In this document: one piece after another, positions 41,773 to 60,254 of the stretch
Position numbering within the stretch: position 1 is the first letter of the stretch
Layout of the letters: every line of letters starts with the position of its first letter
Assembly (NCBI GenBank): GCA_903231505.1
Contig: CAFBRK010000133.1
Span: 124,001 to 188,000, forward strand
Direction of reading: 5' to 3'
Length of the DNA: 64,000 nt
Source of the DNA: Olavius algarvensis associated proteobacterium Delta 3
Lineage (GTDB): Bacteria > Desulfobacterota > Desulfobacteria > Desulfobacterales > CAFBRK01
Made by a program: the position numbers and the translations under genes
The notes under the pieces: generated by a model
Databases searched by the model: none
Seen by the model: only the letters and a program-made list of their open reading frames with translations
What the model was told of the DNA's origin: nothing

Positions 41773-42567
41773 ATGAAAGCCGCTAAATTACTTTCGGGCA
41801 TTGTTGCACTGGCTGTTTTTTTCGGTCTTTCGGGGATCGCCTCAGCGGGAACACTCGATGAGATTTTAAAACGGGGCGAGCTCCGTATCGCCTGTCAGAC
41901 CCAGGGTGCGCCGTTCAGTTTCGTAGACAGAAACGGCAATCGGACCGGCAGCTCCGTAGAGCTTTGTGAACTGATCGCCAAAGAGATGGGGGTCAAGGTC
42001 AAGTTCCTCAACTATGACTGGGACGGTCTGATCCCGGCCCTGCTCTCCAAGAAGGCCGACATGCTTGCCGCCGATATGACCCCGACCCTGAAACGGGCCA
42101 TGAAAATCGCTTTTACCGACCCCTATATGTACACCGGCAGCGTGGTGTTCGTGAAGCAGAACAGCCCGATAAAGACGCTGGAAGACATTACCGCCGGGAC
42201 CAAGATGGCCGTTCTGTTGGGCTCGACCGGTGAAAGCGATGCCAAAAAGGTCTTTCCGAACGCTCAATATAAGACATACAAGGGCGGCGGCCCGCTGCTG
42301 ATCAACGCCGTTCTTGCCGGGCACGTCCAGGCCGGGGTGAACGACGGCTCTGCGGTAAGGGGCCAGGTCGCCAGCTTTCCACCCAACAGCGTCCGTATCC
42401 TGGAAGGCCAGTTGTCCCGTTCCCCCCTGGCCTTTGCCGTGCGCTATGATTCTCCGGATCTTCAGAGTTGGCTCAACCTGTTTTTCCTGCACACCACGCT
42501 GGACGGCCGCCTGGGTAAAAACCTGGATTACTGGGTCAATTCACTGGATTGGAAGGAAGACCATTAA
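41773..42567 (+). CDS. Polar amino-acid ABC transporter substrate-binding protein (SBP_bac_3)
   Basis: 264 residues with a signal peptide ending IASAG. The type II periplasmic fold is seen in LDEILKRGELRIACQTQGAP, GSSVELCELIAKEMGVKVKF, DMLAADMTPTLKRAMKIAFT (the Arg that binds the alpha-carboxylate is in TPTLKRA) and AGVNDGSAVRGQVA. AAGGGAGGAAGAG precedes the ATG. Two permeases and an ATPase follow, a complete polar amino-acid importer. The same fold provides the ligand core of the GluR0-like channels nearby. Confidence 0.93.
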   Translation: MKAAKLLSGIVALAVFFGLSGIASAGTLDEILKRGELRIACQTQGAPFSFVDRNGNRTGSSVELCELIAKEMGVKVKFLNYDWDGLIPALLSKKADMLAADMTPTLKRAMKIAFTDPYMYTGSVVFVKQNSPIKTLEDITAGTKMAVLLGSTGESDAKKVFPNAQYKTYKGGGPLLINAVLAGHVQAGVNDGSAVRGQVASFPPNSVRILEGQLSRSPLAFAVRYDSPDLQSWLNLFFLHTTLDGRLGKNLDYWVNSLDWKEDH

Positions 42568-42606
42568 ACGACCTTTGACCTCTCTGTGGCGGGTCACCTG
42601 TTGCCG

Positions 42607-42635
42607 GGTGTGAGCCGGGGGCTCCGGCTCACACC
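42607..42635 (+). other. Perfect intercistronic hairpin after the binding-protein gene
   Basis: GGTGTGAGCCGG (42607-42618) and CCGGCTCACACC (42624-42635) are exact complements around a five-base loop. No T-run follows. Hairpins here in ABC operons often protect the binding-protein mRNA and keep it more abundant than the permease mRNA; that function is inferred. Confidence 0.75.
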
Positions 42636-42678
42636 TCGCTGAATAGAACCCCTGACAAGAAACTTACGGGTATACGAT

Positions 42679-43347
42679 ATGCTTGAAGCCTTCAATTTTA
42701 GAGTCATCTTGGAATATATGCCGCTCTATGGGAAGTGCTTCCTGGCCACCCTTTGGCTGTCTGCCTTGTCGCTGTTTGGAGCGATTCTGGTGGGGATCAT
42801 CGCCTGTGCCATGCGACTGAGTCAATCACGATTCTTGTCCCGCGCAGCCGGTGTTTATATCGAAAGCATCCGCTCCACGCCCTTGCTGGCTCAGCTCTAT
42901 TTCTTCTATTTCGGCCTGCCGACCCTTGGGATCATGCTACCGGAATGGGTGACCGGTGTCTTGGCCCTGACCTTGAACAGCGGGGCCTATTATGCGGAGA
43001 TCATCCGGTCGGGTATCCAGGCCATTCACTTCGGGCAGATAGAAGCCGGAATTGCCTCCGGTTTGAGCTATTTTCAGCGCATGCGCCATATTATCCTGCC
43101 GCAAGCGCTCGGAATGACGATCCGGCCCATGCTGGGGCAGGCCATCGTGCTGGTAAAAGACTCTTCCCTGCTCTCATTGATTTCAATTATGGAGCTGACG
43201 CGGGCCGGCCAGTTGTTGACATCGGAACGATTCATGCCGACGGAAGGATTTCTGACGACAGCCGCCTTTTATCTGATTATCTACTACATGCTCAAAGCCT
43301 TTTCCAACTGGTCGGAAAAACGGCTGATCTTCCAGGAAGCTTATTGA
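42679..43347 (+). CDS. Amino-acid ABC transporter permease 1 (HisM/GlnP-like)
   Basis: 222 residues, about five helices. The EAA loop typical of the HisMQ family is visible as EAGIASGLSYFQRMRHIILPQA, and YIESIRSTPLLAQLYFFYFG is the usual segment after the second helix. It pairs with permease 2, 17 bp downstream. Confidence 0.93.
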   Translation: MLEAFNFRVILEYMPLYGKCFLATLWLSALSLFGAILVGIIACAMRLSQSRFLSRAAGVYIESIRSTPLLAQLYFFYFGLPTLGIMLPEWVTGVLALTLNSGAYYAEIIRSGIQAIHFGQIEAGIASGLSYFQRMRHIILPQALGMTIRPMLGQAIVLVKDSSLLSLISIMELTRAGQLLTSERFMPTEGFLTTAAFYLIIYYMLKAFSNWSEKRLIFQEAY

Positions 43348-43364
43348 ACTGCGAGGAATAAACC

Positions 43365-44033
43365 ATGTGGGGTTTCTATTTTGACGAACTGATGCACAGT
43401 CTTCCCTTTTTTCTCAAGGGCGTCTGGATGACCGTCGCGGTATCCGGATTGAGCTTGATCGCAGGGACGATTGTCGGCTTCATTTGCGGGATCCTGAGGG
43501 CCGGCAGGAACAAAATTCTCCGAGCCGTCATCGGCGCCTGGGTGGACGTCATTCGCGGAACGCCCTTTCTGGTGCAGGTTTTTATCATCTTTTTTATTCT
43601 GCCCAGTGCCGGCATCGAGCTGGAAGCCTTCCCGGCAGCGGTTATTGCACTGAGCAATTTAACAGCCAGTTTCATCTGTGAGATCGTCGCCGGCGGTATC
43701 CTCGCCGTGCCCAAAGGCCAAAGAGAAGCCGCGACCGCCTCCGGGCTCTCTCAATACCAGCAACTCCGATTTATCGTGTTGCCCCAGGCCATGCGAACCA
43801 TTATGCCGCCGCTGGTGGGCCAGTATGTTCTTTTAATAAAAGATTCATCGGTGGTCTCGGCCATTGGCGTGGTCGATATCACCAGGGTCGGGTGGCTGAC
43901 AGTGCAACGCATCCCGGAAGGCCTCATGGTATTCGGCCTTGTGGGGATTTTGTACTTTGCCATCTGTTATCCGTTAATCAATCTGTCGGCTTACATGGAA
44001 AGGCGCATGACGGTCGTGTCCACCAGGCTCTAA
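43365..44033 (+). CDS. Amino-acid ABC transporter permease 2
   Basis: 222 residues, with WVDVIRGTPFLVQVFIIFFI and the EAA loop EAATASGLSYQ-like (REAATASGLSQYQQLRFIVL). It is paralogous to permease 1 and would form the heterodimeric membrane channel with it. The ATPase gene begins 57 bp downstream. Confidence 0.93.
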   Translation: MWGFYFDELMHSLPFFLKGVWMTVAVSGLSLIAGTIVGFICGILRAGRNKILRAVIGAWVDVIRGTPFLVQVFIIFFILPSAGIELEAFPAAVIALSNLTASFICEIVAGGILAVPKGQREAATASGLSQYQQLRFIVLPQAMRTIMPPLVGQYVLLIKDSSVVSAIGVVDITRVGWLTVQRIPEGLMVFGLVGILYFAICYPLINLSAYMERRMTVVSTRL

Positions 44034-44090
44034 AGCGGGGCATGCAACGGCAGTTGCAGGAAACAGTACAACCTTAAGGGGAACAACTAA

Positions 44091-44819
44091 ATGATATCTT
44101 TTAAGAATGTAAACAAATGGTACGGAGACCTTCACGTCCTGAATGATATCGATCTGGAGATTGCCCCGGGGGAGGTGGTGGTGGTCTGCGGTCCGAGTGG
44201 ATCGGGAAAAAGCACCCTGATTCGCTGTATCAACCGCTTGGAGCCTATCCAGAAAGGCGAGCTCGTCGTTGATAACATGGCAGTGCATGACAAAAAGATC
44301 AATATGACCAAGATTCGGGCGGATATCGGGTTTGTTTTTCAATCCTTCAACCTCTATCCGCACATGACGGCGCTCCAGAACACCACCATCGCACCCCTCA
44401 AAGTCAGAAAAATGAAGAATGAAGAGGCCGAGAAACTCGGCCGCGAGGTGCTCACCCGGGTGGGTTTGGAAGATCGGATCGATCACTATCCAGCCCAACT
44501 CTCAGGAGGTCAGCAGCAGCGTGTTGCCATCGCCAGGGGTCTGTGCATGCGCCCCAAAATTATGCTCTTTGACGAACCGACTTCCGCCCTGGACCCCGAG
44601 ATGATCGGAGAAGTGCTGGATGTCATGAAAACGCTTGCCAGAGAGGGAATGACCATGATGGTGGTAACCCACGAGATGGGATTCGCCCGGGAGGTCGCCA
44701 ATCGGGTCGTATTTATGGATGAGGGAAAGATCGTCGAGGTGGCGCCGCCCAACGATTTTTTTACAAATCCGCAAACGGAGAGGGGCAAATACTTTTTAAG
44801 TTCAATCCTATCACATTGA
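44091..44819 (+). CDS. Amino-acid ABC transporter ATPase (GlnQ/HisP-like)
   Basis: 242 residues with all ATPase motifs: Walker [11 protein letters not shown]-loop [13 protein letters not shown], signature [15 protein letters not shown], Walker [15 protein letters not shown] and H-loop [11 protein letters not shown]. It energises import of a polar amino acid by the preceding permeases. It is the final gene of the importer; the deleted GluR0-like gene starts 63 bp later. Confidence 0.96.
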
Positions 44820-44882
44820 TCCATTCCGAGAGACCCGCAAAACGATAATGTAAAGCAAATTCTTTTCACCTTGCTTCGTCTC

Positions 44883-45679
44883 ATGAAACTGGACCGAAAG
44901 AGACTCGAATACAACAGGTCCTCTCCTGCAAGGATACCTTTGTGGTTATTCATATCCATACTTCTGGTTCTACATGGTCCAATCGAGGTAAAATCTCAGG
45001 AAAAATCATTAACGGTTGCCATTAAGGTCCTGGCACCCTTTTCCTGTTTATCATCATTTGCGGAAATGCGGTCTGGTGTGTGGAAAGAGGGAGTCACATC
45101 ATAAGTAACAAATACTTCCCGGGCATATTCGAAGCCGTTTGGTATGTCATGGTCACCATGACCACTGTTGGCTATGGGGACGTGGTTCCCCGCAAGTGGT
45201 TTGGGCGGTTGATTGCCCTTTTCATTATGTTGATTGGAATCGGCTTCTTCGGATGGGCCATCGCTCAATTTTCGTCGGCCATCACGGTGCGGAAGCTTCA
45301 CGCCGATATCGTAAGGCCCGCGGATCTTCGCAACAGAGTTGTTGCAACTGTAGAATTTACCCCGGGTGTTCCCACATTGAATGATCTCGGGGCCATAGTT
45401 TTACCAGTCGCAAAAATTGATGACGCTTATGAATTGCTATTAAATGAAAAAGTGGATGCGGTGGTCTTTGACTCCCCTTCCATCCTCTATTACGAACGCC
45501 ATAAAGGGGCTGGAAAAGTCAAGACCGTCGGTCCGCTCTTTGACATTCAATACTACGGCTTCATGTTCCCCGCAGGGAGCGAACTCCGTGAGGCGGTCAA
45601 TCGCACCCTTCTCGAATTGAAGGAAAACGGCACCTATGAGCTAATTTATGACAAATGGTTCGGGAAAATGGGCCGATAG
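44883..45679 (+). pseudogene. Deleted copy of a GluR0-like glutamate-receptor K+ channel
   Basis: The first part (ATG at 44883) encodes a signal-like helix and SLTVAIKVLAPF, matching the start of the intact channel at 48612. At about 45038 the sequence jumps to LFIIICGNAVWCVERGSHIIS in another frame, equivalent to the first membrane helix of the intact copy. About 105 residues, nearly all of ligand lobe S1, are missing together with frame. The rest is intact: filter TMTTVGYGDVVPRK, second helix, and lobe S2 (AVVFDSPSILYYERHKGAGK) to KWFGKMGR. A frame starting at 45080 could still give a 199-residue pore-plus-S2 protein. Confidence 0.85.
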
Positions 45680-45738
45680 ACCGGGGGAAGTAAATCGCCG
45701 GCTGCGTTGTCGGCACTCGAGTCTCGAAGAGATGCGTG

Positions 45739-45783
45739 GAGCGACGATGTCGCGTTCTATAAAATCGTCCCACGATTTTATTA
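45739..45783 (+). repeat. REP-like repeat (GAGCGAC family), copy 2
   Basis: GAGCGACGATGTCGCGTT followed by a perfect palindrome: ATAAAATCGT (45759-45768), CCC, ACGATTTTAT (45772-45781). It corresponds to 17463-17506. Located between the deleted channel gene and the opine dehydrogenase gene; it could act as a terminator-like hairpin or operator. Confidence 0.7.
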
Positions 45784-45816
45784 TCACTCACCCAAAGAAA
45801 TCGGGAGGATAACAGT

Positions 45817-46899
45817 ATGAACATCGCTGTATTGGGCTCGGGAAACGGAGGCTGTGCGGTTGCATTCGACTGTGCGGTCCACGGCCATCAGGTCCGTCTA
45901 TTTGATTTTGAACAATTCCCGGATACCATCAAGGCTGTCCAAAAGAACGGAGGTATCCACTGCGAGGGTGAGCTCGACGGATTTCAGCCGGTGGACTATG
46001 CCGGACACGACATTGAAAAAGCGCTGGATGGGGCGGACATCATCTATGCCGTCGGCCCGGCGTACAGCACCAGACCTTTTGCAGAGGCCTGCAAGCCGCA
46101 CCTCAAAAAAGGGCAGATCGTGATCGTGTGCCCGAGTTCCTGCGGGGGCGCTATCGAGTTTAAAAACGGCGCGGGACTGGTGCTTCGGGATGAAGACATT
46201 GTCGTGGCAGAGACGTCGACGCTGCCGTATGCCGTGCGATTGCTTGAGCCGGGCAAGATCCGGATTTTCAACAAGCTCAAAGGGGGATTGTTTCTGGCGG
46301 CGCTTCCAGCGAAAAACACCAAGCATGTGTTGGAGCAGGTGCGCGATGTCTATCCGGCGATGAGCGCGGCAAAAAATATCCTGCAGACCAGCTTGCAGAA
46401 CGGCAACCCGGTCATCCATCCCACGATTACGCTCATGAATGTCGCGAGAATCGAACGCACCAAGGGCGATTTCGATTTTTATCATGATGGCGTCAGTGCT
46501 GCGGTCGGCAGGCTGATCGAAGGGGTGGACAAAGAGCGGGTAGCCATCGGCAAAAAATTGGGCGTGGAGGTCATTCCCGATCCGGAACTGGGCGTCATTC
46601 AGGGCTATATGACAGAAGCCACGTATGACACCGGTTTTGTCACCTCGCCGGGATTCGCGGGGGTCAAAGCCCAGCCCAGCCTCGACTACCGGTATTTCAA
46701 TGAGGATGTGGGGTACGGTCTGGTGTTCCTCCAGGAACTTGGAAAACAGGTCGGGGTGGCCACACCGATTATGTCGGCTGTGATCACACTGGTATCGCTG
46801 TTGATGGAGCGGGATTATGTGGGTGAAGCCCGGCGCACGATGGAAACGTTAGGGCTTTCAAAGCACACGGCGGAAGAATTGGAGACGCTGTTGGCGTAA
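45817..46899 (+). CDS. NAD(P)-dependent octopine/nopaline dehydrogenase-family enzyme
   Basis: 360 residues. The N-terminal Rossmann domain (MNIAVLGSGNGGCAVAFDCA, GSGNGG at 7-12) is followed by the all-helical opine dehydrogenase domain from about residue 180, with NGNPVIHPTITLMNVARIE holding the conserved His. Opine dehydrogenases join or split an amino acid and a 2-oxo acid. Here an importer and amino-acid-gated channel genes flank the gene, so a catabolic role releasing an amino acid from an imported opine is attractive, but direction and substrate are unproven. GGGAGG precedes the ATG. Confidence 0.9.
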   Translation: MNIAVLGSGNGGCAVAFDCAVHGHQVRLFDFEQFPDTIKAVQKNGGIHCEGELDGFQPVDYAGHDIEKALDGADIIYAVGPAYSTRPFAEACKPHLKKGQIVIVCPSSCGGAIEFKNGAGLVLRDEDIVVAETSTLPYAVRLLEPGKIRIFNKLKGGLFLAALPAKNTKHVLEQVRDVYPAMSAAKNILQTSLQNGNPVIHPTITLMNVARIERTKGDFDFYHDGVSAAVGRLIEGVDKERVAIGKKLGVEVIPDPELGVIQGYMTEATYDTGFVTSPGFAGVKAQPSLDYRYFNEDVGYGLVFLQELGKQVGVATPIMSAVITLVSLLMERDYVGEARRTMETLGLSKHTAEELETLLA

Positions 46900-48611: not shown

Positions 48612-49697
48612 ATGGAAAACCGTAGAAGAAAATGGAAAATCTATCGATTTCTTTTGATCGTACCTTTTGTTCTGGTTTTTGGTTTGCCGAATGAGGTGCC
48701 ATCCGCAGAGAAGATGTTGACCGTGGCCGTTGAGATAACTGCGCCGTGTGTCATGCATTCCGGTAATACGTATACCGGCTTTGACATCGAGCTTTGGGAG
48801 GAAATCGCTCGAGAACTGGACGTTGCGTTTACTTATAAAGAGACCGATTTGAAGGGTCTTTTTAATCATATGGTCGAACGCAAGGCAGATGTGGCTTTTT
48901 CATGCATTACCGTGACCGAAGAACGGGAAAAGATGATCGACTTTTCCCACCACTATTTTGATTCCGGCCTGCGCATCATGGTTCTAAATGAAACCACATT
49001 CAGCCTGACCGAATCGGCGAAATCCGTTTTCTCTCCAATCGTAGTGAAATCAATAACCTACATTGGATTGTTTATCATTATATGCGGGCACATATTCTGG
49101 TGGATTGAAAGAGGTCACAAATATATCAGCCGAAACTATTTACCGGGGATATTCCAAGCCTTTTGGTATGTTCTGGTGACCATGACCACTGTCGGCTACG
49201 GAGACATTGTGCCGCGCAAATGGGTCGGGCGACTGATGGCCTTTCTTGTAATGCTTATCGGCATCGGGTTTTTTGGATGGGCGATTGCTCAGCTGTCTTC
49301 GGCAATCACTTTACAAAAACTCCATCCCGATATCACCGGCCATCGGGATCTTCGCAATCGATTGGTTGCAACGGTCAAGGGAACGACGAGTGTTCCTGCG
49401 TTGGAAAAACTCGGGGCAATCGTCGTTCCTGGGAAATCAATTGATCACGCTTACGAGAAGCTTTTAAATGATGAGGTGGATGCGTTGGTTTTTGATTCGC
49501 CGACGATTCTATACTATGCGCGTAACAAGGGTGCCGGGCGAGTTTCGGTTGTCGGTACGCTCTTTGACATTCAATACTACGGATTCTTGTTCCCGCAAGG
49601 AAGTAAGCTGCGTGAACCGGTGAATCGAGCCCTTTTGAAACTAAGAAAAAAAGGCATATACGACAGAATTTACAGTAAATGGTTCGGATCAAACTAG
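48612..49697 (+). CDS. GluR0-like ionotropic glutamate receptor K+ channel
   Basis: 361 residues with the layout of prokaryotic glutamate receptors: signal peptide (to about 32); ligand lobe S1 (LTVAVEITAPCVMHSG, YTGFDIELWEEIARELD, Arg105 in TVTEEREKMIDFS, the usual alpha-carboxylate ligand); membrane helix M1 (about 145-163); pore loop with K+ filter TVGYGD at 193-198; helix M2 (GRLMAFLVMLIGIGFFGWAI); lobe S2 with Asp295 in ALVFDSPTILYYARNKG. Four subunits would form an amino-acid-gated K+ channel in the inner membrane with the ligand site in the periplasm. The deleted paralog at 44883 shares the pore and S2. The ATG at 48612 is preceded by an out-of-frame ATG at 48605. Confidence 0.92.
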   Translation: MENRRRKWKIYRFLLIVPFVLVFGLPNEVPSAEKMLTVAVEITAPCVMHSGNTYTGFDIELWEEIARELDVAFTYKETDLKGLFNHMVERKADVAFSCITVTEEREKMIDFSHHYFDSGLRIMVLNETTFSLTESAKSVFSPIVVKSITYIGLFIIICGHIFWWIERGHKYISRNYLPGIFQAFWYVLVTMTTVGYGDIVPRKWVGRLMAFLVMLIGIGFFGWAIAQLSSAITLQKLHPDITGHRDLRNRLVATVKGTTSVPALEKLGAIVVPGKSIDHAYEKLLNDEVDALVFDSPTILYYARNKGAGRVSVVGTLFDIQYYGFLFPQGSKLREPVNRALLKLRKKGIYDRIYSKWFGSN

Positions 49698-49759
49698 ATG
49701 CACGGTACGATAATGGTATCTTCAAGATATGAAATGGCTGACAGGCAAGGATGATCGCC

Positions 49760-50470
49760 ATGAATCTTTTTTTATGGAGATCGTTTCAAGCGAAGAATAG
49801 ATCCATCGCAATTAAACAACGTGTGTTCCCTCTGATTTCATTTTTCTTCATTCTTTATTGCGCCCATCTTCAGCAGTTGTATGCCAACGATGACATTCCG
49901 CTTTCAGCGCCTCAAAATGATGATATGTTGGAAGCGATAGTCAATCCTTTTGACTCTACTTGCTATGACTGGAGAGGAAGTGTCGTTCCATGTGATTTCA
50001 AACGGCCGTATGCCGAACTGATGTTTGACAAATCCATCCCTGATTCCCGTTTTACGGATAACAAAGATGGGACGGTGACCGACCATCTGACCCAGCTAGT
50101 TTGGCTTAAGAATATGAATTGTTTCGGGATTCAGGATTGGCAAAGTGCGCTACTGGCAGCAAAAAGCCTTAAATCGGGAGACTGCGGACCAAATCCCGAA
50201 CATATTCTTTCCGATGGATCTTCTGCCGGTGATTGGCGACTGCCGACAATGAAAGAACTGTGCACATTAATCGATTTCAGAAACAGAGATCCAGCCTTGC
50301 CGGACGGTCATATGTTTTCAGATGCTCCCTCGGGCTACCATTGGTCGTCAACGAGATTTGATTATCATCCGGATATGGCATGGATTGTATACTTCGAATC
50401 CGGCACCACGTGCTACGAAAATATAAAAAACCGATCCGGTTATGTTTTGCCGGTCCGCAGCCTAAAGTAA
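49760..50470 (+). CDS. DUF1566 (Lcl C-terminal domain) exported protein
   Basis: 236 residues with a signal sequence ending near LYANDD and one DUF1566 domain: RFTDNKDGTVTDHLTQLVWLKN, WQSALLAAKSL, GDWRLPTMKELCTLID, YHWSSTRFDYHPDMAWIVYF and RSGYVLPVRSLK. The fold is related to FGE and C-type-lectin-like domains, often surface-exposed. It lies 62 bp after the glutamate-receptor gene and 67 bp before the pLGIC gene, so the three may be one transcript. AAGGATG lies upstream of the preferred ATG at 49760. Confidence 0.85.
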   Translation: MNLFLWRSFQAKNRSIAIKQRVFPLISFFFILYCAHLQQLYANDDIPLSAPQNDDMLEAIVNPFDSTCYDWRGSVVPCDFKRPYAELMFDKSIPDSRFTDNKDGTVTDHLTQLVWLKNMNCFGIQDWQSALLAAKSLKSGDCGPNPEHILSDGSSAGDWRLPTMKELCTLIDFRNRDPALPDGHMFSDAPSGYHWSSTRFDYHPDMAWIVYFESGTTCYENIKNRSGYVLPVRSLK

Positions 50471-50537: not shown

Positions 50538-52793
50538 ATGGGTGATATATTGACATATGGCTCAAAGATATCATGCATTTTCAGGGTGTTATCCGCTGTC
50601 ATGGCAGTAACTCTGATGCTTTCAATGAGTGCATGTGGGGACGGCAACACATTCCAGATAGCGGTCATCGGCCCCTTGTCCGGGAAAGACCGTGCCGGCG
50701 GCCAGGCTATGCTGGATGGGGTGAATCTATGTGTGGCAGAGATCAATGAACGCGGAGGGATTGCCGGTAGAAAACTGGAGGTGCTTGCTTACGATGATCA
50801 AAATAACAAAAACATGGCTCGAATAAAGGCCTTGGAGATTGCCCGCGACAGCAACGCGTTGGCCGTAATTGGTCATTATTACAGTTCGACTTCTGTTGAG
50901 GGGGGAAAGATCTACGAAAAATTTGGCCTTCCGGCAGTGACCGCAAGCGCAACCGCTTCGGAGGTCACTGAAGGAAACGATTGGTTCTTTCGCGTTGTTC
51001 CCGATACCAATCTTCAAGGAAAATGGACAGCCATTTACACCAAGGAGATACTCCGGCAGGACAGAGCTTACATTGTATATGAACGAGACACTTATGGCTC
51101 CGCGCTGCAACGTTCTTTCAAGCGCACTGCCGGCGATCTTGGGCTTCAAATACAAAACGTATGGGGGATTGATTCAGAAACCGGTGATCTGGACAAATTA
51201 CTCAAGAAGATCACGCGTGACTTGCAGGATGACCCGAGTCCCGGAGCCTTGTTTGTAGCGCTCCAAGATCACGAAGCCGCCAAAATAGTGCGTCTGATTC
51301 GAGACGAAGAAATTGACCTTACGATCATCGGCGGAGATGCCACCGGGTCGGAATCATTTGCGAGAAAATTTGAAGATGTTCCCTTAAGAAGGAGAGGCTA
51401 CGGTCATTACACCGATGGCATTTACGCAACCACATTTTTCATACGCGACATCGGCGACTTTAAGGCACAGCAATTCAACCATTCTTTTAAAACGCACTTT
51501 GGCAGAAATCCCGATGATGTAGCTGCTACGAGTTATGATGCGGCTGCGATAGTCGTCGAGGCCATCAAGCGGGCAAGACCAGGGGGCGATCTGGCAAAAA
51601 GCCGTGAAGGTATCCGCAGGCAGTTGACGGCTTTCAACCACATCGAAACTGCCCACAAAGGTGTTACCGGTCGCATCTATTTTAATGAACACGGCAACGT
51701 CGTGAAACCTTTTCCTTTCGGTGTCTACTTGCAGGGCAAGCTGATCTCAGCACCTGTTCAGCTCAAACCGATCGTAAACCCCGAAGCGGTCGTCGATTTA
51801 CGCGAAAAGTTGGAAGAGGGAAAAATTCTCGCTGTCGATGATCACTTCATGTACAAGACAACCGTGGTTTACACGGGAATAGACATCAATGAAATCAGCA
51901 ATATTGACCCCAGAAATGGAGCTTTCCATGCGGATTTCTACATTTGGTTCAGACACAGGGGCCCCCTCGATTACAGCAAAATAGAGTTCCTCAATGCAGC
52001 CAAGGACATCCATCTCATCGATCCCATTATGAAAATGGCAATTGATGATACTTCATACAGCGCCTATGGAATCAAAGGTGATTTTAAGGAAGAATTTACT
52101 TTTCGCGATTATCCGTTCGACTCACAAACATTGAATATCCGTTTTCGTCATAAACGACTCGACAGCAATGGCCTTTTGTTCGTGGCCGACGATATCGGGA
52201 TGCAACGTGATGGGGGCCTACCACAGGTGGAGAGTTCTAGGGAACATTCCATCCTCGACCCGGTCGGAGAATGGCATCTGCAGAAGGTGATGGTTTTTTC
52301 GGACATCAGCGCCACCGATTCTACCCTCGGCAATCCGCGCATGTTCAATGCCACAGCGGATACCGATATAAACTACTCCCGGTTCAATGTCGTCACCGAG
52401 ATAAAAAGGAATGCGAAAAACTACATACTCAACAATCTGATCCCACTGTTTATTATCATTTTACTCGGCTATGCCATGCTCTACATATCCCCCCAAGGGC
52501 CGCCATTCGTGGCACGGATGAACCTCGGTGTCACAGCGCTGTTGACAGCCATCATATTAAGCGTCAAAGCCTCCAGCCAGCTGCCGAATATAGGCTATCT
52601 CGTAGCGCTGGACTTTATTTATTTTGCCACCTATGCTCTCATCCTCTCGGGAATTATCATCTCTGTCGCAGAGCTCATCGCGTTCCTCAAGAGAAAGAAT
52701 ATACTGGCAAAACGGCTCGAAATGTTCGGTCGTGTGTTTCAACCGTTATTTTTTCTGACGGCAATCGGGATTTTTGTTTATCTGTATAGCTAG
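50538..52793 (+). CDS. Periplasmic-binding-protein/pentameric ligand-gated ion channel fusion (pro-loop receptor)
   Basis: 751 residues. Residues 1-33 are a signal with a lipobox-like end (LSMSAC). About 35-405 is a LIVBP-type binding domain (FQIAVIGPLSGKDRAGGQAM, GLPAVTASATASEVT, DDVAATSYDAAAIVVEA). About 430-625 is a Cys-loop-receptor ligand domain: Trp470 in DFYIWFRH, pro-loop FRDYPFDSQTLNI with Pro526 and no disulfide cysteines, and Trp579 in GEWHLQ. The pore domain has M1 with Pro636 (NNLIPLFIIILLG), M2 661-682 with Arg660 at 0', Thr at 6' and Leu669 at 9' (ARMNLGVTALLTAI), LPNIGY in the M2-M3 loop, M3 690-712 and M4 733-751. The cytoplasmic M3-M4 loop is short, as in prokaryotes. The ligand is probably amino-acid-like. 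Confidence 0.93.
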   Translation: MGDILTYGSKISCIFRVLSAVMAVTLMLSMSACGDGNTFQIAVIGPLSGKDRAGGQAMLDGVNLCVAEINERGGIAGRKLEVLAYDDQNNKNMARIKALEIARDSNALAVIGHYYSSTSVEGGKIYEKFGLPAVTASATASEVTEGNDWFFRVVPDTNLQGKWTAIYTKEILRQDRAYIVYERDTYGSALQRSFKRTAGDLGLQIQNVWGIDSETGDLDKLLKKITRDLQDDPSPGALFVALQDHEAAKIVRLIRDEEIDLTIIGGDATGSESFARKFEDVPLRRRGYGHYTDGIYATTFFIRDIGDFKAQQFNHSFKTHFGRNPDDVAATSYDAAAIVVEAIKRARPGGDLAKSREGIRRQLTAFNHIETAHKGVTGRIYFNEHGNVVKPFPFGVYLQGKLISAPVQLKPIVNPEAVVDLREKLEEGKILAVDDHFMYKTTVVYTGIDINEISNIDPRNGAFHADFYIWFRHRGPLDYSKIEFLNAAKDIHLIDPIMKMAIDDTSYSAYGIKGDFKEEFTFRDYPFDSQTLNIRFRHKRLDSNGLLFVADDIGMQRDGGLPQVESSREHSILDPVGEWHLQKVMVFSDISATDSTLGNPRMFNATADTDINYSRFNVVTEIKRNAKNYILNNLIPLFIIILLGYAMLYISPQGPPFVARMNLGVTALLTAIILSVKASSQLPNIGYLVALDFIYFATYALILSGIIISVAELIAFLKRKNILAKRLEMFGRVFQPLFFLTAIGIFVYLYS

Positions 52794-53371: not shown

Positions 53372-54430
53372 ATGCGAGATAAACTAAACGTAGCGGTTCT
53401 CGGTACCGGCCAGATGGGATCCGGAATTGTCAGACTGTTGATGCGAAAACAAGGAGTGGCAATTGTGGGGGTATACGGTCGGCGGGCGGATCGGGCCGGG
53501 GTCGATGTGGGAGAGGCCATCGGACTCGACGAGAAAATGGGGGTCGCACTCACCGCCGATCTTCCCGGCATGCTGTCATCGGCAAAACCGGATGTCGTTA
53601 TCCAGGCGACCTGCTCGAAGGTCGAACAGGCCGCCGATGAGATCAAAACCGCCGTGCAAGGCGGAGCGAATGTCATCTCCATTGCCGAGGAAATGGCGTA
53701 TCCGTCATACGAGGCGCCCGGGCTTTCCGAGGAGATTCATACGCTTGCCATGGAGAACGAGGTCACGGTCGTCGGAACGGGCATCAATCCCGGTTTTGTC
53801 CTGGATCTTCTGGTGATTTCCCTGACGGGCGTATGCTACGGGGTGGAATCGATCACCGCACGGCGGATCAACGACCTGTCGCCCTACGGCCCGTCCGTCC
53901 TGCAAACCCAGGGCGTGGGCATCACCCCCGAAGCGTTTAAAAAAGGCGTCGAGGACGGATCGGTGGTCGGCCACTTCGGGTTTCCGGAATCCATCAGCAT
54001 GATCGCCGCGGCACTCGGCTGGAAGATCGAAAAGATCGAACAAACCCGTGATCCGATCATTTCCAATGTCCACCGGGAAACCGAGTTTGTGAACATCGAA
54101 CCCGGCCTGACCGCGGGCTGCACGCACACGGCCAAGGGTTACATGGATGGCAAACCGGTCATTCACCTGATTCACCCCCAGCAGGTCCATCCGCACCTGG
54201 AGGACGTGCAGACCGGTGACTATATCGACATCAAGGGTGAGCCGGACATTAGTTTTTCCAGCGGTCCCGAGATCCCCGGCGGCATCGGCACGATTGCCCT
54301 GGCGGTCAACATGATTCCCCAGGTGGTCACCAGTCTTCCGGGACTGAAAACCATGGCGGACCTGCCGGCGCCGGCGGCCATCATGGGGGATGTGCGGCAA
54401 CTGATCGAGTCCCGGAAATACGGAGAGTAG
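53372..54430 (+). CDS. ord: 2,4-diaminopentanoate dehydrogenase
   Basis: Oxidatively deaminates (2R,4S)-2,4-diaminopentanoate, formed from D-ornithine by OraSE, to 2-amino-4-oxopentanoate with NAD(P). 352 residues: Rossmann motif VLGTGQMGSG (G11, G13, G16), the DVVIQATCSKVEQAADEI helix, GTGINPGFVLDLLV, and the C-terminal IPGGIGTIALAVNMIPQVV. The family resembles DAPDH/dihydrodipicolinate-reductase folds. An ideal AAGGAGGGAG precedes the ATG. It is the first gene of the ornithine operon; ortA follows after 156 bp. Confidence 0.94.
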   Translation: MRDKLNVAVLGTGQMGSGIVRLLMRKQGVAIVGVYGRRADRAGVDVGEAIGLDEKMGVALTADLPGMLSSAKPDVVIQATCSKVEQAADEIKTAVQGGANVISIAEEMAYPSYEAPGLSEEIHTLAMENEVTVVGTGINPGFVLDLLVISLTGVCYGVESITARRINDLSPYGPSVLQTQGVGITPEAFKKGVEDGSVVGHFGFPESISMIAAALGWKIEKIEQTRDPIISNVHRETEFVNIEPGLTAGCTHTAKGYMDGKPVIHLIHPQQVHPHLEDVQTGDYIDIKGEPDISFSSGPEIPGGIGTIALAVNMIPQVVTSLPGLKTMADLPAPAAIMGDVRQLIESRKYGE

Positions 54431-54586
54431 ATCGGTCGTATTCGAATCCGGGAGGCATGGCGTTTTGGAATCCGCCGTATTGGTTCTGCGTCTCTATACG
54501 TCAGCTCTCGATTGCGGTATAATCCTAACTTATCGTCAAAATGACATCCGAATTGGGCCTTGTCCATCTTACGAAAGGGAACGATT

Positions 54587-54898
54587 ATGGAACGCGCGGT
54601 CAAAAACACGTGGGTGGAAATCGGTGCCGTCATTCTTGAAAAAGACCAACGCGCGCCGAACCTGCCCGATGATACAAAACAAGTCCCTTTGGAAATGCGG
54701 GTAAAAGGGTTTCTCCTTCATGACGCGGAAATCGGCGCAGAAGCCGAAATCATCACGCCCTCGGGGCGCACGGTCAGGGGCACGCTTACCGGGATCAACC
54801 CGGAGTATACCCATATGTTCGGCCGCCCGATTCCCGAGCTGTCTCCAATCGCCGGAGAGATCCGGGCGATTCTCCGGGAAAGGAGGAACGCGTCATGA
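54587..54898 (+). CDS. ortA: 2-amino-4-oxopentanoate thiolase, alpha subunit
   Basis: 103 residues. Small subunit of the PLP enzyme that thiolytically splits 2-amino-4-oxopentanoate with CoA into acetyl-CoA and alanine. Recognised by WVEIGAVILEKDQRAPNLPD, the VPLEMRVKGFL segment and GINPEYTHMFGRPIPEL. The ATG at 54587 (GAAAGGGA upstream) is preferred over an upstream TTG. Its stop overlaps the ortB start in an ATGA junction. Confidence 0.94.
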   Translation: MERAVKNTWVEIGAVILEKDQRAPNLPDDTKQVPLEMRVKGFLLHDAEIGAEAEIITPSGRTVRGTLTGINPEYTHMFGRPIPELSPIAGEIRAILRERRNAS

Positions 54899-56316
54899 GT
54901 ACGGATTCCTATAAAACAATAATGGATCAAAAAGCGGACATCATGCGCGCCTCGGTTGGTATCGATTATGAGAAATACACCACCGGCCCGCTTTCTTTCG
55001 ATTACGAGGCCATGCTCAACGACACCGGTTACGACCTGGATGCCATCCGCGATATCCAGAGCCGTTCCGCTGTGGGCGATACACCGCTGGTGGAACTGAA
55101 GAATTTGACCGAACTCGTCCGTACCGTGTCCGACCCGGGCAAGGGCGCGCGGCTTTTCGTCAAGGACGAGGCCGCCAATCCGTCGGGTTCGTTCAAGGAC
55201 CGGCGGGCATCGCTATCGGCCTTCGAGGCGAAGAAAAAAGGGTACCCGGGCATCGCGGCGGCAACCAGCGGCAACTACGGCGCGGCTGTGGCGTCCCAGG
55301 CCGCCAAGGCGGGCCTGGGGTGCATCATCGTGCAGGAAGCCTTTGACAGCCAGGGAATTGCCCAGCCGGAGATCGCCGAAAAGACACGGGCCTGCGAGGC
55401 GTACGGCGCCGAAGTCGCCCGGCTGTCCGTGGGACCTGAACTCTTTTACTATTTTCTCATCGTTTTAGAGGAAACCGGATATTTCAACGCCTCCCTGTAT
55501 ACGCCCTATTCCATCCTGGGCATCGAAACACTGGGTTATGAACTGGCCGTGCAGGTGAATGAGCGGGAGGGGCGGTTTCCGGATCTGGTGATCGCCACCC
55601 ATGCCGGTGGCGGCAATGTGACCGGCACGGCCCGGGGGCTCATCAAGGCCGGGGCGGCCGATACCCTGATGGTGGCTGCCAGCGTGGATCTGTCCGGCCT
55701 TCACATGGCCTCGGACCGGGATTTCAACCGCAAGTCCTTTACCACGGGCCATACCGGCTTTTCCGTGCCGTTCTCCACCTGGCCGGACCGGACGGATGTT
55801 CCGAGAAACGCAGCCCGGTCTCTCCGGTATATGGACCGGTTCGTCACGGTGACCCAGGGTGAGGTGTTCTACATGACCGAAGCCCTCGCGGCCATTGAGG
55901 GCATGGAAAGAGGCCCGGCCGGAAACACGTCCCTTGCCGCGGCGTTTGCCATCGCACGGGAATTGGACCGCGAACAGATCATCGTCGTCCAGGAGACCGA
56001 ATATACCGGCGCGGGCAAGCATCCGCTGGGGCAGTTGAACCTGGCCAAGCAGATGGGGATCGACGTCCGCCGGGGAGATCCCAGGGAAAACCGGCCGGGG
56101 AAGGCTATCGTCATCCCGGAGCATCCATCGCAGATCACGCCGGTCGAAATGGATCTGGATCGCCTCCGGCGCTCCTATTTGCGAAAGGCTCTGGATTCAC
56201 TTCCGGAAGGAGAGACTGTCACCGAGACGGATATCGCGTTTCTGGCCGCCGAAATAAAAACCGGCGAAACCTATGTCAGGGAGGCCATCGAGTCCCATGA
56301 AAGAACGAAAAGATGA
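54895..56316 (+). CDS. ortB: 2-amino-4-oxopentanoate thiolase, beta subunit (PLP)
   Basis: 473 residues of the fold-type II PLP family (threonine synthase-like). The Schiff-base Lys101 lies in NPSGSFKDRRAS; PLP phosphate binding is shown by ATSGNYGAAVASQAAK and HAGGGNVTGTARGL; the C-terminal IIVVQETEYTGAGKHPLGQL is specific for OrtB. With OrtA it makes acetyl-CoA and alanine from the ornithine-derived C5 ketone. Translationally coupled to ortA (ATGA), with AAGGAGG inside the end of ortA. oraS begins 20 bp before its stop. Confidence 0.95.
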   Translation: MSTDSYKTIMDQKADIMRASVGIDYEKYTTGPLSFDYEAMLNDTGYDLDAIRDIQSRSAVGDTPLVELKNLTELVRTVSDPGKGARLFVKDEAANPSGSFKDRRASLSAFEAKKKGYPGIAAATSGNYGAAVASQAAKAGLGCIIVQEAFDSQGIAQPEIAEKTRACEAYGAEVARLSVGPELFYYFLIVLEETGYFNASLYTPYSILGIETLGYELAVQVNEREGRFPDLVIATHAGGGNVTGTARGLIKAGAADTLMVAASVDLSGLHMASDRDFNRKSFTTGHTGFSVPFSTWPDRTDVPRNAARSLRYMDRFVTVTQGEVFYMTEALAAIEGMERGPAGNTSLAAAFAIARELDREQIIVVQETEYTGAGKHPLGQLNLAKQMGIDVRRGDPRENRPGKAIVIPEHPSQITPVEMDLDRLRRSYLRKALDSLPEGETVTETDIAFLAAEIKTGETYVREAIESHERTKR

Positions 56317-56644
56317 TTTCGACTCCCGGAGGGAGCATTTAAAGGACATGTCGGATGCGCAATTGCATGATCATTTCTGGTCCCTGGTGGAGCAGATGGT
56401 CCAACCGCTGGTGGAAGAGGCCCGAACCCACACCTCGCCGTCGATCGAGCGGTCGATCCTGCTTCGCATGGGCTTTTCGAGCCTGGAAACCAAACCGCTG
56501 GTGAACCGGATGCTGGAAAAGGGATTGCTGGGCCATGGTGCCGGAAATCTGATTCTGAAACTGGCCCAAAAAAAAGGCATCACCGTGAGGCAGGCGGGCC
56601 TTGGCTTGATAGAGGGCAAATACTGGGAGGAGTTGTCCGTATGA
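56297..56644 (+). CDS. oraS: D-ornithine 4,5-aminomutase, small (S) subunit
   Basis: 115 residues. It starts MKERKDDFDSRREHLKDMSD at the ATG at 56297 and contains RSILLRMGFSSLETKPLVNR and a C-terminal AGNLILKLAQKKGITVRQAG, the known OraS pattern. The short subunit caps the TIM barrel of OraE. It overlaps ortB by 20 bp and joins oraE by an ATGA junction. A GTG frame start further upstream is not needed. Confidence 0.93.
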   Translation: MKERKDDFDSRREHLKDMSDAQLHDHFWSLVEQMVQPLVEEARTHTSPSIERSILLRMGFSSLETKPLVNRMLEKGLLGHGAGNLILKLAQKKGITVRQAGLGLIEGKYWEELSV

Positions 56645-58839
56645 AACGGTTGAAGCCCAATGAAAAAATCGACGTCCCGGAGATTCTCAAGGACCTGGAT
56701 CAATACCGCCCGAAGCGCAAGGGCTGGACCTGGCGAAAACCCTTGAAACATCAGAGGGTAGGACCGTTCGAGCTGAAGGACACTTCCGAGAACCTGAAGC
56801 ATTCCGTGCCGCTGCCGTCCGCCCATTATTTCGACGACATCGATCCCCAGTGCGATTTCGTCATCACCACGGAAATCGCCTCGGGCCGGTTCGAGGACGA
56901 CATCCGGCGGATGCGCATGGCCGCATGGCACGGGGCCGATCATATCATGGTGATCCGCACCGCCGGCCAGTCCCATTTCGACGGCCTCATCGAGGGCACG
57001 CCCGAAGGTGTCGGCGGCATTCCCATTTCCCGCAAACAGGTCCGCGCGTCGCGCAAGGCGCTGGATTTGATCGAAGCGGAAGTCGGCCGGCCCATCAATT
57101 TTCATTCCTATGTCAGCGGCGTGGCCGGGCCCGAAATCGCGGTGATGTTTTCGGAAGAGGGCGTCAACGGCGCCCACCAGGATCCCCAGTACAACGTGCT
57201 GTACCGGAACATCAACATGCACCGGTCATTCGTGGACGCCGCCGAGGCCAAGACCGTCATGGCGGATGCCGGGATTCTCCAGATCGACGGCGCCCACAAT
57301 GCCAATGCCACGGCCAAGGAGGCCTGGAAGGTCATGCCCGAGCTTCTGGTGCAGCATGCCGTGAACTGCGCGTTTTCCCGCGCCGCCGGCATGCCCGGAG
57401 AAAATATTGCCCTTTCCACGGTGCCCCCCACGGCACCGCCGGCTCCCAAGCTGTGGCTCGACCTGCCCTACGCCATCGCCCTGCGCGACCTGTTTGCAGG
57501 GTATAAATTCAGGGCACAGCAGAACACCCGGTACATGGAAGCCGACATGGCCGAAGCCACCATCACCCACGTTCTGGACACCCTGATTTCCCGCATGACC
57601 TCCGCCGACATCCAGAGCACGATCACGCCGGACGAGGGCCGGAACGTTCCCTGGCATTACAACAATATCCTGGGGGTGAACACGGCGCGTCAGACGCTCA
57701 TGGGATTGGACGGCCTGATGGAGATGATCGATCTGAAACAGGAGGGACACCTGCCCGAAAAGGTCCGGGAACTGAAAGAACGCGCCATCCTGTTTCTCGA
57801 GGAGATCATTGAAAACGGCGGGTATTTCGCAGCCGTGGAGCAGGGCCAGTTCGTGGATTCCGGGTACTTCCCCGAACGAAACGATGACGGCATCGCGCGT
57901 GACCCCGAAGGCGGGGTCTCCGCCGGCAGCATTGTCAAGCGGGAACCCGATTACGGAGCGCCGGTGTGCAGCCACTTCGGCGCCAACACGTATTCGGACA
58001 AGGCATGCGATGCCTATGGTGGATGCACCCTGTGCGATCCATCCAAGATTGCCTACATCGATGAGTTGGATGAATCGGACAACGTTCACAACCGTCTTAA
58101 AATACCCATGGCGGAAAAAGCGGACGGGCGGGTGCGGCCGGAAGTGGAGTGGGCCGGGGACGGCATTGTCTGCGTGACGCTTTTCGTTCCGGAAGAACCG
58201 CGGGTCGCCGAAGCCGCTGCCCTGGAAATGGCCCGGAAGATGGGACTTACGGAACCCGAAGTGATCAGCCGCCGGTTGATCCATCCCGCCGAGGGATCCC
58301 TGTTCGAGATCAAGGGGCTGTTGGATGTTGCCGTGGACAAAACCAAACTGGTGATTCCCGAAGAAGAGACGGTCATGCCGGATGATGAGATCGAAGCCTT
58401 TGTAAGGCCCCGTGGCATTCATGTGGTGGCCGCCACCGTGGGCGAGGATGAGCATTCGGTGGGCATGCGGGAAATCATCGACATCAAGCACGGCGGCCTG
58501 GAAAAATACGCGTTCCACTGCCATTACCTGGGCACGTCCGTGCCGGTATCCAAAGTGCTGGACGCCGTCCAGGAAACCGGTGCCAAAGCCGCATTGATTT
58601 CGACGATCATTTCCCACAACGACATCCACCGGGTCAACATGCGCCGGCTTCACGATCTTGCCGTCGAGCGCGGCATACGCGACGGCCTGATCCTGATCGC
58701 CGGCGGCACGCAGGTCAATGACGCCATGGCCGTCGAGTGCGGGATGGATGCCGGATTCGGCCGGGGCACCAAGGGGGGGCATGCGGCGAGCTTTATCGTG
58801 GGAAAACTGATGGATAAAGAAAGGGGTCAAACCGGATAA
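56641..58839 (+). CDS. oraE: D-ornithine 4,5-aminomutase, large (E) subunit, adenosylcobalamin/PLP
   Basis: 732 residues. Radical B12 and PLP enzyme converting D-ornithine to 2,4-diaminopentanoate. The N-terminal two thirds form the TIM barrel (RFEDDIRRMRMAAWHGADHI, INFHSYVSGVAGPEIAVMF, GAHNANATAKEAWKVMPELL). The B12-binding Rossmann domain has DEHSVG (DxHxxG) with axial-ligand candidate His605, and Lys616 exactly 11 residues later. That spacing equals His618/Lys629 of the Clostridium sticklandii enzyme, where the Lys holds PLP in the resting state. Also present are CHYLGTSVPVSKVLDAV and IAGGTQVNDAMAVECGMDAG. All expected residues are intact. Confidence 0.96.
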   Translation: MKRLKPNEKIDVPEILKDLDQYRPKRKGWTWRKPLKHQRVGPFELKDTSENLKHSVPLPSAHYFDDIDPQCDFVITTEIASGRFEDDIRRMRMAAWHGADHIMVIRTAGQSHFDGLIEGTPEGVGGIPISRKQVRASRKALDLIEAEVGRPINFHSYVSGVAGPEIAVMFSEEGVNGAHQDPQYNVLYRNINMHRSFVDAAEAKTVMADAGILQIDGAHNANATAKEAWKVMPELLVQHAVNCAFSRAAGMPGENIALSTVPPTAPPAPKLWLDLPYAIALRDLFAGYKFRAQQNTRYMEADMAEATITHVLDTLISRMTSADIQSTITPDEGRNVPWHYNNILGVNTARQTLMGLDGLMEMIDLKQEGHLPEKVRELKERAILFLEEIIENGGYFAAVEQGQFVDSGYFPERNDDGIARDPEGGVSAGSIVKREPDYGAPVCSHFGANTYSDKACDAYGGCTLCDPSKIAYIDELDESDNVHNRLKIPMAEKADGRVRPEVEWAGDGIVCVTLFVPEEPRVAEAAALEMARKMGLTEPEVISRRLIHPAEGSLFEIKGLLDVAVDKTKLVIPEEETVMPDDEIEAFVRPRGIHVVAATVGEDEHSVGMREIIDIKHGGLEKYAFHCHYLGTSVPVSKVLDAVQETGAKAALISTIISHNDIHRVNMRRLHDLAVERGIRDGLILIAGGTQVNDAMAVECGMDAGFGRGTKGGHAASFIVGKLMDKERGQTG

Positions 58840-58901
58840 TCAACGAAATGGATTTCCTGCTGAAATTCTGATAGTTTATTTACTGTGTACTCAGGTGCAT
58901 T

Positions 58902-60254
58902 ATGAAACACGTACTGATCCTGGGAGCCGGAGCGGTGGCGCGCCCCGCAGTCAGCTACCTGTTGGAAAAAGAGGGCGTCGCGGTGGCCGTTGCCGATCAG
59001 GACCCGGAAAAGGCCGAAGCCCTTGTCGCCGGGCACCCCGCCGGCCGGGCCGTCGCGTTGGACGCCGGAGACGCCCCGATGCTGGAACGAACCATCGCGG
59101 GTGCCGACATCGTCGTCAGCCTCCTGCCCTGGACCCTGCATCCGGTCATCTCCGAACTGTGCCTGGCCCACGGCAAGCACATGGTGACCGCCTCCTATGT
59201 CAAAGAGGAAATGCAGGCCCTGGATCGTGACGCACAGGCCAAGGGCCTGATCTTTCTCAACGAGGTGGGGGTGGACCCGGGCCTCGATCACATGTCGGCC
59301 ATGCAGATCATCGATGCCGTCCACGCAGGAGGGGGAAGGATCGACAGTTTCTTCTCATACTGCGGCGGCCTTCCTGCCCTGGAGAGCAACAACAACCCCC
59401 TGGGGTACAAGTTCTCCTGGAGTCCGGAAGGGGCCATGCTGGCGGCCACCAACGACGGGCGCTACATGGAACACGGCAAGGTTTATGAAGTACCCGGGGG
59501 CGATCTTTTCAAACACTACTGGCTGAAAAGCGTCCCCGGCGCCGGGGTTTTCGAAGCCTATGTCAACCGGGATGCCCTGCCTTATCTGAAGATTTACGGC
59601 ATCGAGGACGCCACCGGCATCTACCGGGGCACCCTGCGAAACGTCGGCTACTGCGAAACCTGGGACTTCATCAAGCAGCTGGGGCTGCTCAACCGTAAAA
59701 TGAAGTTCGACTTCGATGAGGTCACCCCCCGCGAAGTGCTGGCCAACATCGTGAACTGCCCCGTGACGGACGTGCGGGCAGGCGTGGCCGCATACCTCAA
59801 GATTCCGGAGCACGCCCTGACACTCAAGAAACTGGAGTGGCTGGGATTGCTTTCCGACCGAAAGTGTCCCATCGGTACGGCCTCGGTCTTCGAGATGTTC
59901 TCCCACACCCTTAAGCACCGATTGGTGTACGACGAAGGGGAGATGGACCTTTTGGTGATGCACCACGAATTCGAAGCCGTTTACCCGGGCATGCCCCGTC
60001 AACGCATCCAGTCCACCCTCATCGACCACGGCGATCCCGAAGGCGATAGCTCCATGTCACGAACCGTGGGCTATCCGGTGGGCATAGCGGCCGGCCTGAT
60101 CGCCGAAGGCAGCATCAGCCGGACGGGGGTGCTGCGGCCGGTATCGGCCGAAATCTACATGCCCGTGCTGGCCGAATGCGAGCGCCTGGGCATTCACTTC
60201 AAAGAACGCCGTTCCAATCTGGAGACGGATGAAATCAGTTGTTGGGGAGATTGA
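58902..60254 (+). CDS. Saccharopine dehydrogenase, AASS C-terminal type
   Basis: 450 residues. It follows the saccharopine-reductase half of the animal AASS enzyme closely: KHVLILGAGAVARPAVSYLL, VSLLPWTLHPVISELCLAHG, HMVTASYVKEEMQALD, EVGVDPGLDHMSAMQIIDAV, FSYCGGLPALESNNNPLGYK, FSWSPEGAML, WLGLLSDRKC and the C-terminal RTVGYPVGIAAGLIAEGSIS. The predicted reaction is saccharopine plus NAD(P) to glutamate and 2-aminoadipate 6-semialdehyde. It lies 62 bp after oraE and overlaps the next gene (lysine-ketoglutarate reductase-like) by 26 bp, which would complete the saccharopine pathway. Action on an ornithine analogue cannot be excluded. Confidence 0.9.
   Translation: MKHVLILGAGAVARPAVSYLLEKEGVAVAVADQDPEKAEALVAGHPAGRAVALDAGDAPMLERTIAGADIVVSLLPWTLHPVISELCLAHGKHMVTASYVKEEMQALDRDAQAKGLIFLNEVGVDPGLDHMSAMQIIDAVHAGGGRIDSFFSYCGGLPALESNNNPLGYKFSWSPEGAMLAATNDGRYMEHGKVYEVPGGDLFKHYWLKSVPGAGVFEAYVNRDALPYLKIYGIEDATGIYRGTLRNVGYCETWDFIKQLGLLNRKMKFDFDEVTPREVLANIVNCPVTDVRAGVAAYLKIPEHALTLKKLEWLGLLSDRKCPIGTASVFEMFSHTLKHRLVYDEGEMDLLVMHHEFEAVYPGMPRQRIQSTLIDHGDPEGDSSMSRTVGYPVGIAAGLIAEGSISRTGVLRPVSAEIYMPVLAECERLGIHFKERRSNLETDEISCWGD

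Follow-up and report, generated by a model that had tools for sequence, protein, structure and literature searches.

Fusions of a type I periplasmic binding (PBP-I) domain to the amino terminus of bacterial Cys-loop-type channels were reported from Magnetospirillum and Bradyrhizobium by Tasneem et al. in 2004, who likened them to NMDA and metabotropic receptors (PMC549065). These proteins of Magnetospirillum magnetotacticum and Bradyrhizobium japonicum, termed ART-LGICs, are stated there to have the order PBP-I, ligand-binding domain and four-helix pore, which is also the order of the protein described below; they belong to the Alphaproteobacteria, a lineage other than that of our genome, and are compared by their published description. 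The combination of PBP-I with a Pro-loop ligand-gated channel (pLGIC), whose prior description the original prediction for this locus had left open, was therefore already on record, and the architecture seems to have been known from sequence since 2004 and to be functionally uncharacterised. According to a 2025 paper, DeCLIC is the only pLGIC with an N-terminal domain that has been partly characterised (PMC12664993). DeCLIC, from Desulfofustis, likewise bears an added periplasmic N-terminal domain (PMC12664993, PMC9897478) and is among the best Foldseek matches of our protein; however, its added domain consists of two jelly-roll lobes, whereas ours is a PBP-I clamshell.

Several further systems share single parts with the window protein. 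GABA-A and glycine receptors, GLIC and ELIC have in common with it the fold of the ligand domain, the position of the Pro-loop, R0', L9' and the LP-Y linker between M2 and M3, but they lack the PBP-I cap, and the animal members contain the Cys-loop disulfide, which the window protein does not have. GluR0-type channels and ionotropic glutamate receptors (iGluRs) share the idea of a channel gated by a clamshell, and animal iGluRs possess a PBP-I amino-terminal layer; however, their pore is unrelated to that of the window protein, and at this locus the GluR0-type channel is encoded by a separate gene next door. The bCNG-type channels of the MscS superfamily, which join an MscS pore to a cNMP domain, share both of these parts with MscS-pore relatives of the window gene.

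The window, i.e., the whole 64,000-nucleotide stretch of DNA analysed here, contains a gene (Table 1) in which a single uninterrupted frame had been predicted to encode a complete type I periplasmic binding domain, a Cys-loop-like ligand domain with the motif FRDYPFD, and a four-helix pore with a 9' Leu and the motif LPNIGY. The frame is open over 751 codons up to its stop at 52793, and all of these parts were recovered. In Pfam, the binding domain matches Peripla_BP_6 along its full length (1.4e-36, residues 39-393, profile positions 2-334 of 343) as well as ANF_receptor (3.3e-21), the family to which the top domains of class C GPCRs and glutamate receptors belong, in agreement with the likeness to those top layers that had been pointed out. 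In phmmer searches against the PDB, the first half of the protein matches LIVBP-type binding proteins, and the last 140 residues match chains of GABA-A and glycine receptors, a GLIC chimera and DeCLIC. The Pfam check suggested beforehand gave a divided answer, since Peripla_BP_6 was strong, whereas Neur_chan_memb (5.5e-5) reached 24.0 bits against a curated cut-off of 28.1 and Neur_chan_LBD had no match in the window protein. The Neur_chan_LBD scan of the window's own genome was silent throughout, controls included, and is thus uninformative. A relative that is a plain pLGIC (L101) exceeds the Pfam Neur_chan_LBD cut-off and is matched by the ligand-domain profile of the family at 1.2e-20.

A profile of 34 four-helix homologues, covering ligand domain and pore (A2), matched 256 distinct PDB sequences with a best E-value of 1.6e-18; the best 60 of the 256 are all pLGICs, and the alignments to pLGICs run from the Pro-loop to M4. 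The AlphaFold2 model of residues 418-751 (pLDDT 83.3, pTM 0.72) folds as had been predicted for this half, with a beta-sandwich followed by four helices, and Foldseek aligned it with GABA-A receptors, DeCLIC, GLIC and ELIC at E-values of about 3e-19 to 1e-17 and a probability of 1.0. Homology to the extracellular domain of pLGICs is evident from both the structural (E 3e-19) and the profile matches, the four transmembrane helices include the pLGIC-type M2 with R0' and L9' and the M2-M3 linker, and the Pro-loop proline that is invariant in the pLGIC superfamily is present in FRDYPFD. Around this motif, the translation contains no cysteine, whereas two of them bridge the loop in Cys-loop receptors of the strict, animal kind, and Pfam found no PBP-II domain split by a P-loop pore, as in ionotropic glutamate receptors, in the window protein. 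The protein is thus confirmed as a LIVBP-type domain to which the extracellular domain of a Pro-loop pLGIC and its four-helix pore are joined. The equivalents of LIVBP Ser79 and Thr102, the residues that hold the amino-acid carboxylate in LIVBP, are conserved within the family (Ser in 47 and Thr in 40 of 52). Moreover, the hydrophobic N-terminal segment ends in a lipobox-like motif (window 50628-50648) that reads MSAC here, ISAC in the L093 orthologue and FSAC in the L094 orthologue; the protein may therefore be a lipoprotein with its PBP-I cap lipid-anchored at the N terminus.

Table 1. Features of the window and of related loci (positions without a locus prefix are those of the window)
Feature	Position	Strand	Basis or remark
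GluR0-type channel: SBP_bac_3 (PBP-II) split by two-helix pore, TVGYGD potassium filter	48612-49697	+	Pfam SBP_bac_3 3.4e-29, Ion_trans_2 6.6e-17
Lcl_C-domain protein between the two channel genes, window only	49751-50470	+	Pfam Lcl_C 6.6e-24
PBP-I-capped pLGIC gene, 751 aa	50538-52793	+	Single open frame; start ATG 50538 or in-frame TTG 50535
N-terminal hydrophobic signal segment, lipobox-like MSAC (Cys33) at its end	50577-50636	+	Hydropathy and motif scan
LIVBP-type periplasmic binding domain (PBP-I), residues 39-393	50652-51716	+	Pfam Peripla_BP_6; PDB LIVBP alignment
PBP-I Ser and Thr aligned with LIVBP Ser79 and Thr102	50883-50885, 50952-50954	+	PDB LIVBP alignment
Linker, 56-81% identity among orthologues	51717-51812	+	Orthologue comparison
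pLGIC-type ligand-binding beta-sandwich, residues 426-623	51813-52406	+	Family profile, AlphaFold2, Foldseek to pLGICs
Pro-loop FRDYPFD	52101-52121	+	Pro in 34/34 four-helix homologues
M1 helix	52413-52478	+	AlphaFold2
M2 pore helix: Ala-1', Arg0', Leu9', Lys17'	52503-52577	+	AlphaFold2; register against GABA-A/ELIC chimera
M2-M3 linker LPNIGY, directly after M2	52581-52598	+	Motif position
M3 helix	52605-52688	+	AlphaFold2
M4 helix, C-terminal end	52698-52787	+	AlphaFold2
PBP-I, Cys-loop-type ligand domain and MscS pore, often with C-terminal cNMP domain	L041:7598-10996, L080:4878-8324, L095:4933-8352, others		
MscS-pore form, A. brasilense Sp7 megaplasmid	L116:6441-9761		Later start probable
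MscS-pore form, Azospirillum sp. B510 megaplasmid, WP_012976639.1	L117:4756-7824		Annotated merely as ABC transporter substrate-binding protein
Soluble PBP-I plus SBP_bac_5 double binding protein adjoining PBP-I pLGIC genes	L033:11930-14662, L081:1403-4159, 12 further genes		
Unfused PBP-I-type protein and pLGIC, adjacent genes 2 bases apart	L101:201-1226 and 1229-2548	-	
SBP_bac_5 fused to MscS pore, beside PBP-I pLGIC and another MscS gene	L034:4911-7793	-	
PBP-I pLGIC with cadherin domains and Peripla_BP_4 after M4, 1098 aa, open at contig end	L047:5320-8616	-	

With its 350 contigs, the genome of the window is a draft, and an assembly join or a frameshift could in principle have merged two neighbouring genes. 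Orthologues with the full architecture were, however, found in L093 (G166), L094 (G215), L139 (G093) and L113 (G144), with identities of 75.4, 72.9, 63.0 and 63.8%, respectively, and over 30 genes from many genomes, the single-contig genome G114 among them, have the same architecture, which leaves an artefact exceedingly improbable. When the orthologues were compared part by part (PBP-I domain, linker, ligand domain and pore), dN was far lower than dS in every part, with dN/dS of about 0.15-0.18 across the whole gene; no join or frameshift is thus apparent near 51780, where one would have undone the original prediction. The reading of 50538-52793 as an assembly join is ruled out by the orthologues that share the architecture in other genomes, and Pfam, the PDB profiles, AlphaFold2 with Foldseek, and the four orthologues agree on this point. 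When genome contigs were scanned with the window protein, the sole distant match was an Anaerolineae MAG (L009) of the same architecture.

The pLGIC gene does not stand alone. A GluR0-type gene, which the original prediction for this locus does not mention, lies 0.8 kb upstream of it in the window, and a close orthologue of that gene directly adjoins the PBP-I pLGIC gene in L093 (44-bp gap) and L139 (19-bp overlap), where the Lcl_C gene is missing from the gap between the channel genes. Since L093 and L139 each belong to a family other than that of the window genome, the linkage is found in three families. Both channel genes are also present in G215, on different contigs, so that the pLGIC of L094 is not beside the GluR0 gene, and in G327 and G336 the GluR0 gene only was found. 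The pair is flanked by an amino-acid ABC transporter, an opine dehydrogenase and an ornithine-degradation set (window 41773-46899 and 53372-61596, + strand), the latter comprising 2,4-diaminopentanoate dehydrogenase, OrtB and an ornithine-aminomutase-type protein, and a saccharopine-dehydrogenase-like gene lies around the pair as well. The catabolic neighbours vary between genomes: a class-III aminotransferase is located upstream in L093, an NhaC-type antiporter and an SBP_bac_3 protein are alongside in L113, and an ABC transporter, an opine dehydrogenase and an antiporter occur with the GluR0 gene in L141. Scans for promoters and terminators near the gene returned sites no more numerous than in shuffled sequence. 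The linkage of this lineage to a GluR0-type gene in three families, near genes for basic amino acids and opines, appears to be new; MscS is not mentioned in PMC549065, and the portions of that article used here report no GluR0-type linkage. Near amino-acid catabolism, this lineage keeps side by side a pLGIC topped by a clamshell and a potassium channel of the GluR0 type, which are the bacterial counterparts of two superfamilies of animal receptors. A decayed second GluR0-type copy occurs at window 45080-45679 (+ strand), with pore and second lobe in one frame and a remnant of the first lobe in another frame just upstream; it shares 68% identity with the L093 GluR0 gene. Another decayed GluR0-type copy, with five stops, was found in G003:C89.

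The pore sequence bears on ion selectivity. In M2, the residues V-2' A-1' R0' M1' N2' (codon of R0' at window 52515) align without gaps with P-2' A-1' R0' of the GABA-A alpha1 pore in chimera 6cdu, whereas the alignment with ELIC shows Glu-1'. Among the 34 four-helix members, R0' is present in 28, and position 17' is Lys in 15 and Arg in six more (Lys/Arg in 21 of 34); there is no acid among the -1' residues listed, which resembles anion-selective animal receptors and is unlike the Glu-1' of ELIC and GLIC. Position 9' is divergent across the family, with Leu in 13 and Ile in 12 of the 34. This pattern would favour anions or weak selectivity, and the channel is probably anion-permeable.

Taken with the genomic context, the window protein is, in our judgement, probably a subunit of a bacterial Pro-loop ligand-gated channel with its PBP-I clamshell on the periplasmic side, acting beside the GluR0 channel by the following proposed mechanism. 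The ligand would be an amino acid of the periplasm or a derivative of one, most likely an opine-type conjugate or a basic amino acid, and would bind between the lobes of PBP-I. On closing, PBP-I would reshape the ligand-binding sandwiches that form a ring below it, be it directly or by changing the sandwiches' own affinity for ligand; the Pro-loop would then push on the M2-M3 linker, and the M2 pore would open. Such a pore may pass anions or select poorly. It would alter the membrane potential jointly with the GluR0-type potassium channel encoded nearby, which may read the same or a related ligand through its PBP-II clamshell. Domain content, fold, conservation, selection and linkage are established by the present analysis, whereas we infer the pentamer, its channel activity, ligand and selectivity, and the cooperation with the GluR0 channel; from sequence, an amino-acid-gated channel beside a GluR0 potassium channel is likely. 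For amino-acid sensing, we infer from the neighbouring genes that opines and basic amino acids are the candidate ligands to consider first, a guess that is weak since these catabolic genes vary among genomes. The original prediction had also named opines, an idea with a basis in the neighbouring opine dehydrogenase, ornithine-degradation genes and amino-acid ABC transporter.

The role of the cap could be a different one. It may form an assembly or modulatory layer, as in the amino-terminal domains of AMPA receptors, or concentrate ligand, with the agonist that opens the pore binding to the pLGIC sandwich. This is a possible but somewhat doubtful arrangement: in L101, a PBP-I-type protein and a pLGIC are encoded by adjacent genes, so a covalent cap is not required, and ligand concentration was put forward by Tasneem et al. 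(PMC549065), but purifying selection on PBP-I is similar to that on the remainder and the residues of the LIVBP type that contact the amino acid are retained. It is also conceivable, yet rather unlikely, that the receptor conducts weakly or not at all, and that its four-helix bundle mainly anchors a periplasmic sensor or passes the signal on to another protein, for instance a transporter or the GluR0-type channel. The tight linkage to the GluR0-type gene and to transport genes, and the variable pore-lining residues of the wider family, would suit such a role; however, M2 of the window lineage retains the GABA-A-like pattern of R0', L9' and LP-Y, and the pore is the best conserved part in the orthologues L094, L139 and L113. 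A gated channel remains the reading that we prefer for the window protein.

By itself, the fusion adds one more member to the 2004 architecture, and it is an apparent natural swap of pores that raises the interest of the wider family above that of this single gene. A search of the window's order (389 genomes) with a ligand-domain profile (A1) retrieved relatives in 51 genomes; in a phylum-wide sample, ligand-domain relatives occurred in 11 of 395 genomes, the matches beyond the order being mostly weak, and some weak A1 matches are plain or otherwise-fused pLGICs. Two classes share PBP-I and the ligand domain: one has the four-helix pore (~700-800 residues), the other an MscS pore (~970-1180 residues) and, in many though not all members, a C-terminal cNMP-binding domain. 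The MscS-pore class comprises 20 domain-checked genes in the window's order, and its representatives match Peripla_BP_6 (1e-34 to 1e-45), MS_channel_2nd (1e-13 to 1e-20) and cNMP_binding (down to 5e-24) in Pfam. The MS_channel beta-domain is present in the MscS-pore relatives that were scanned with Pfam, and the remaining ones were assigned by the family HMM. In 14 of the 20 proteins, hydropathy indicates that the ligand domain is followed by five helices, which would place the MscS beta-domain and the cNMP domain in the cytoplasm.

The ligand domains of the two classes are homologous over their entire length, as the profile-profile comparison of A2 with the ligand domains of the MscS-pore set (A3) gave a probability of 100 and an E-value of 1.8e-62. 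An AlphaFold2 model from MscS-type sequences only (pLDDT 81.6, pTM 0.76) had acetylcholine-binding proteins and nicotinic and GABA-A extracellular domains as its best 50 Foldseek matches (best E 1.6e-9), with a probability of 1.0 and TM-scores of about 0.55-0.6 among the matches listed. The MscS-type ligand-domain profile alone had no match in a PDB sequence search up to E 10; because of this, the Cys-loop-type identity of the domain in the MscS class rests on its homology to the four-helix class and on its fold.

A maximum-likelihood tree of 52 PBP-I plus ligand-domain sequences contains a single change of pore; the split has a support of 99/99 and was found in all 200 bootstrap trees tested, and an earlier quick tree of 56 rows agrees. 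With the unfused pair L101 as the root, which sits on a long branch, the MscS class is nested within the four-helix class, and the direction of the swap is thus likely from four-helix to MscS. In known pLGICs, the Pro-loop proline touches the M2-M3 linker. It is present in all 34 four-helix members versus an aligned proline in two of 18 MscS members, a loss that one would expect of a loop whose role is to couple the ligand domain to the four-helix pore. Four-helix pores are pentameric and MscS pores heptameric in known members. We think it fairly likely that a single gene fusion transferred the module of PBP-I and Cys-loop-type ligand domain from a four-helix to an MscS pore, and that it would so gate two unrelated pores of different symmetry. 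Such a transfer would have given rise, in the window's order and in Azospirillum, to natural MscS channels that are gated by ligand and often receive a second, cytoplasmic cNMP input, a class that is undescribed. Among the papers retrieved by searches of the open-licence PMC literature, none described a Cys-loop-type ligand domain on an MscS pore, including bCNG proteins, and its occurrence there together with PBP-I appears to be new.

In the usual account of nerve receptors, a ligand-binding ring is tuned to its own pore. In this family, the same two-part sensor stands on two unrelated pores of expected different symmetry, and most of the swapped forms show decay of the coupling loop; the pair of PBP-I and ligand domain can be regarded as a portable sensor because one lineage carries it on an MscS pore. 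This makes it testable which parts of the ligand domain open any pore and which are specific to the four-helix pore. The MscS-pore form was also detected by tblastn against plasmids, where nine Azospirillum records align at ~31-32% identity with at least 98% of a query made up of ligand domain and pore, and its presence in A. brasilense Sp7, a laboratory strain, opens it to experiment. Since these alphaproteobacterial relatives end in an MscS pore, the four-helix pore of the 2004 examples is best read as a reported one. The Pro-loop site of two Azospirillum proteins is mixed when inspected by eye, with PPYG in one and AYG in the other.

Other arrangements occur in the family besides those listed in Table 1. 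The soluble double receptor of PBP-I and SBP_bac_5 (~915 residues) is found with four-helix genes in nine genomes, where these genes are usually tandem pairs, and its position beside such pairs suggests heteromeric channels with a shared periplasmic partner. In L104, L105, L108 and L109, the pLGIC ligand domain and pore are part of proteins of ~720 residues that begin with a different sensor, which looks Cache-like by eye.
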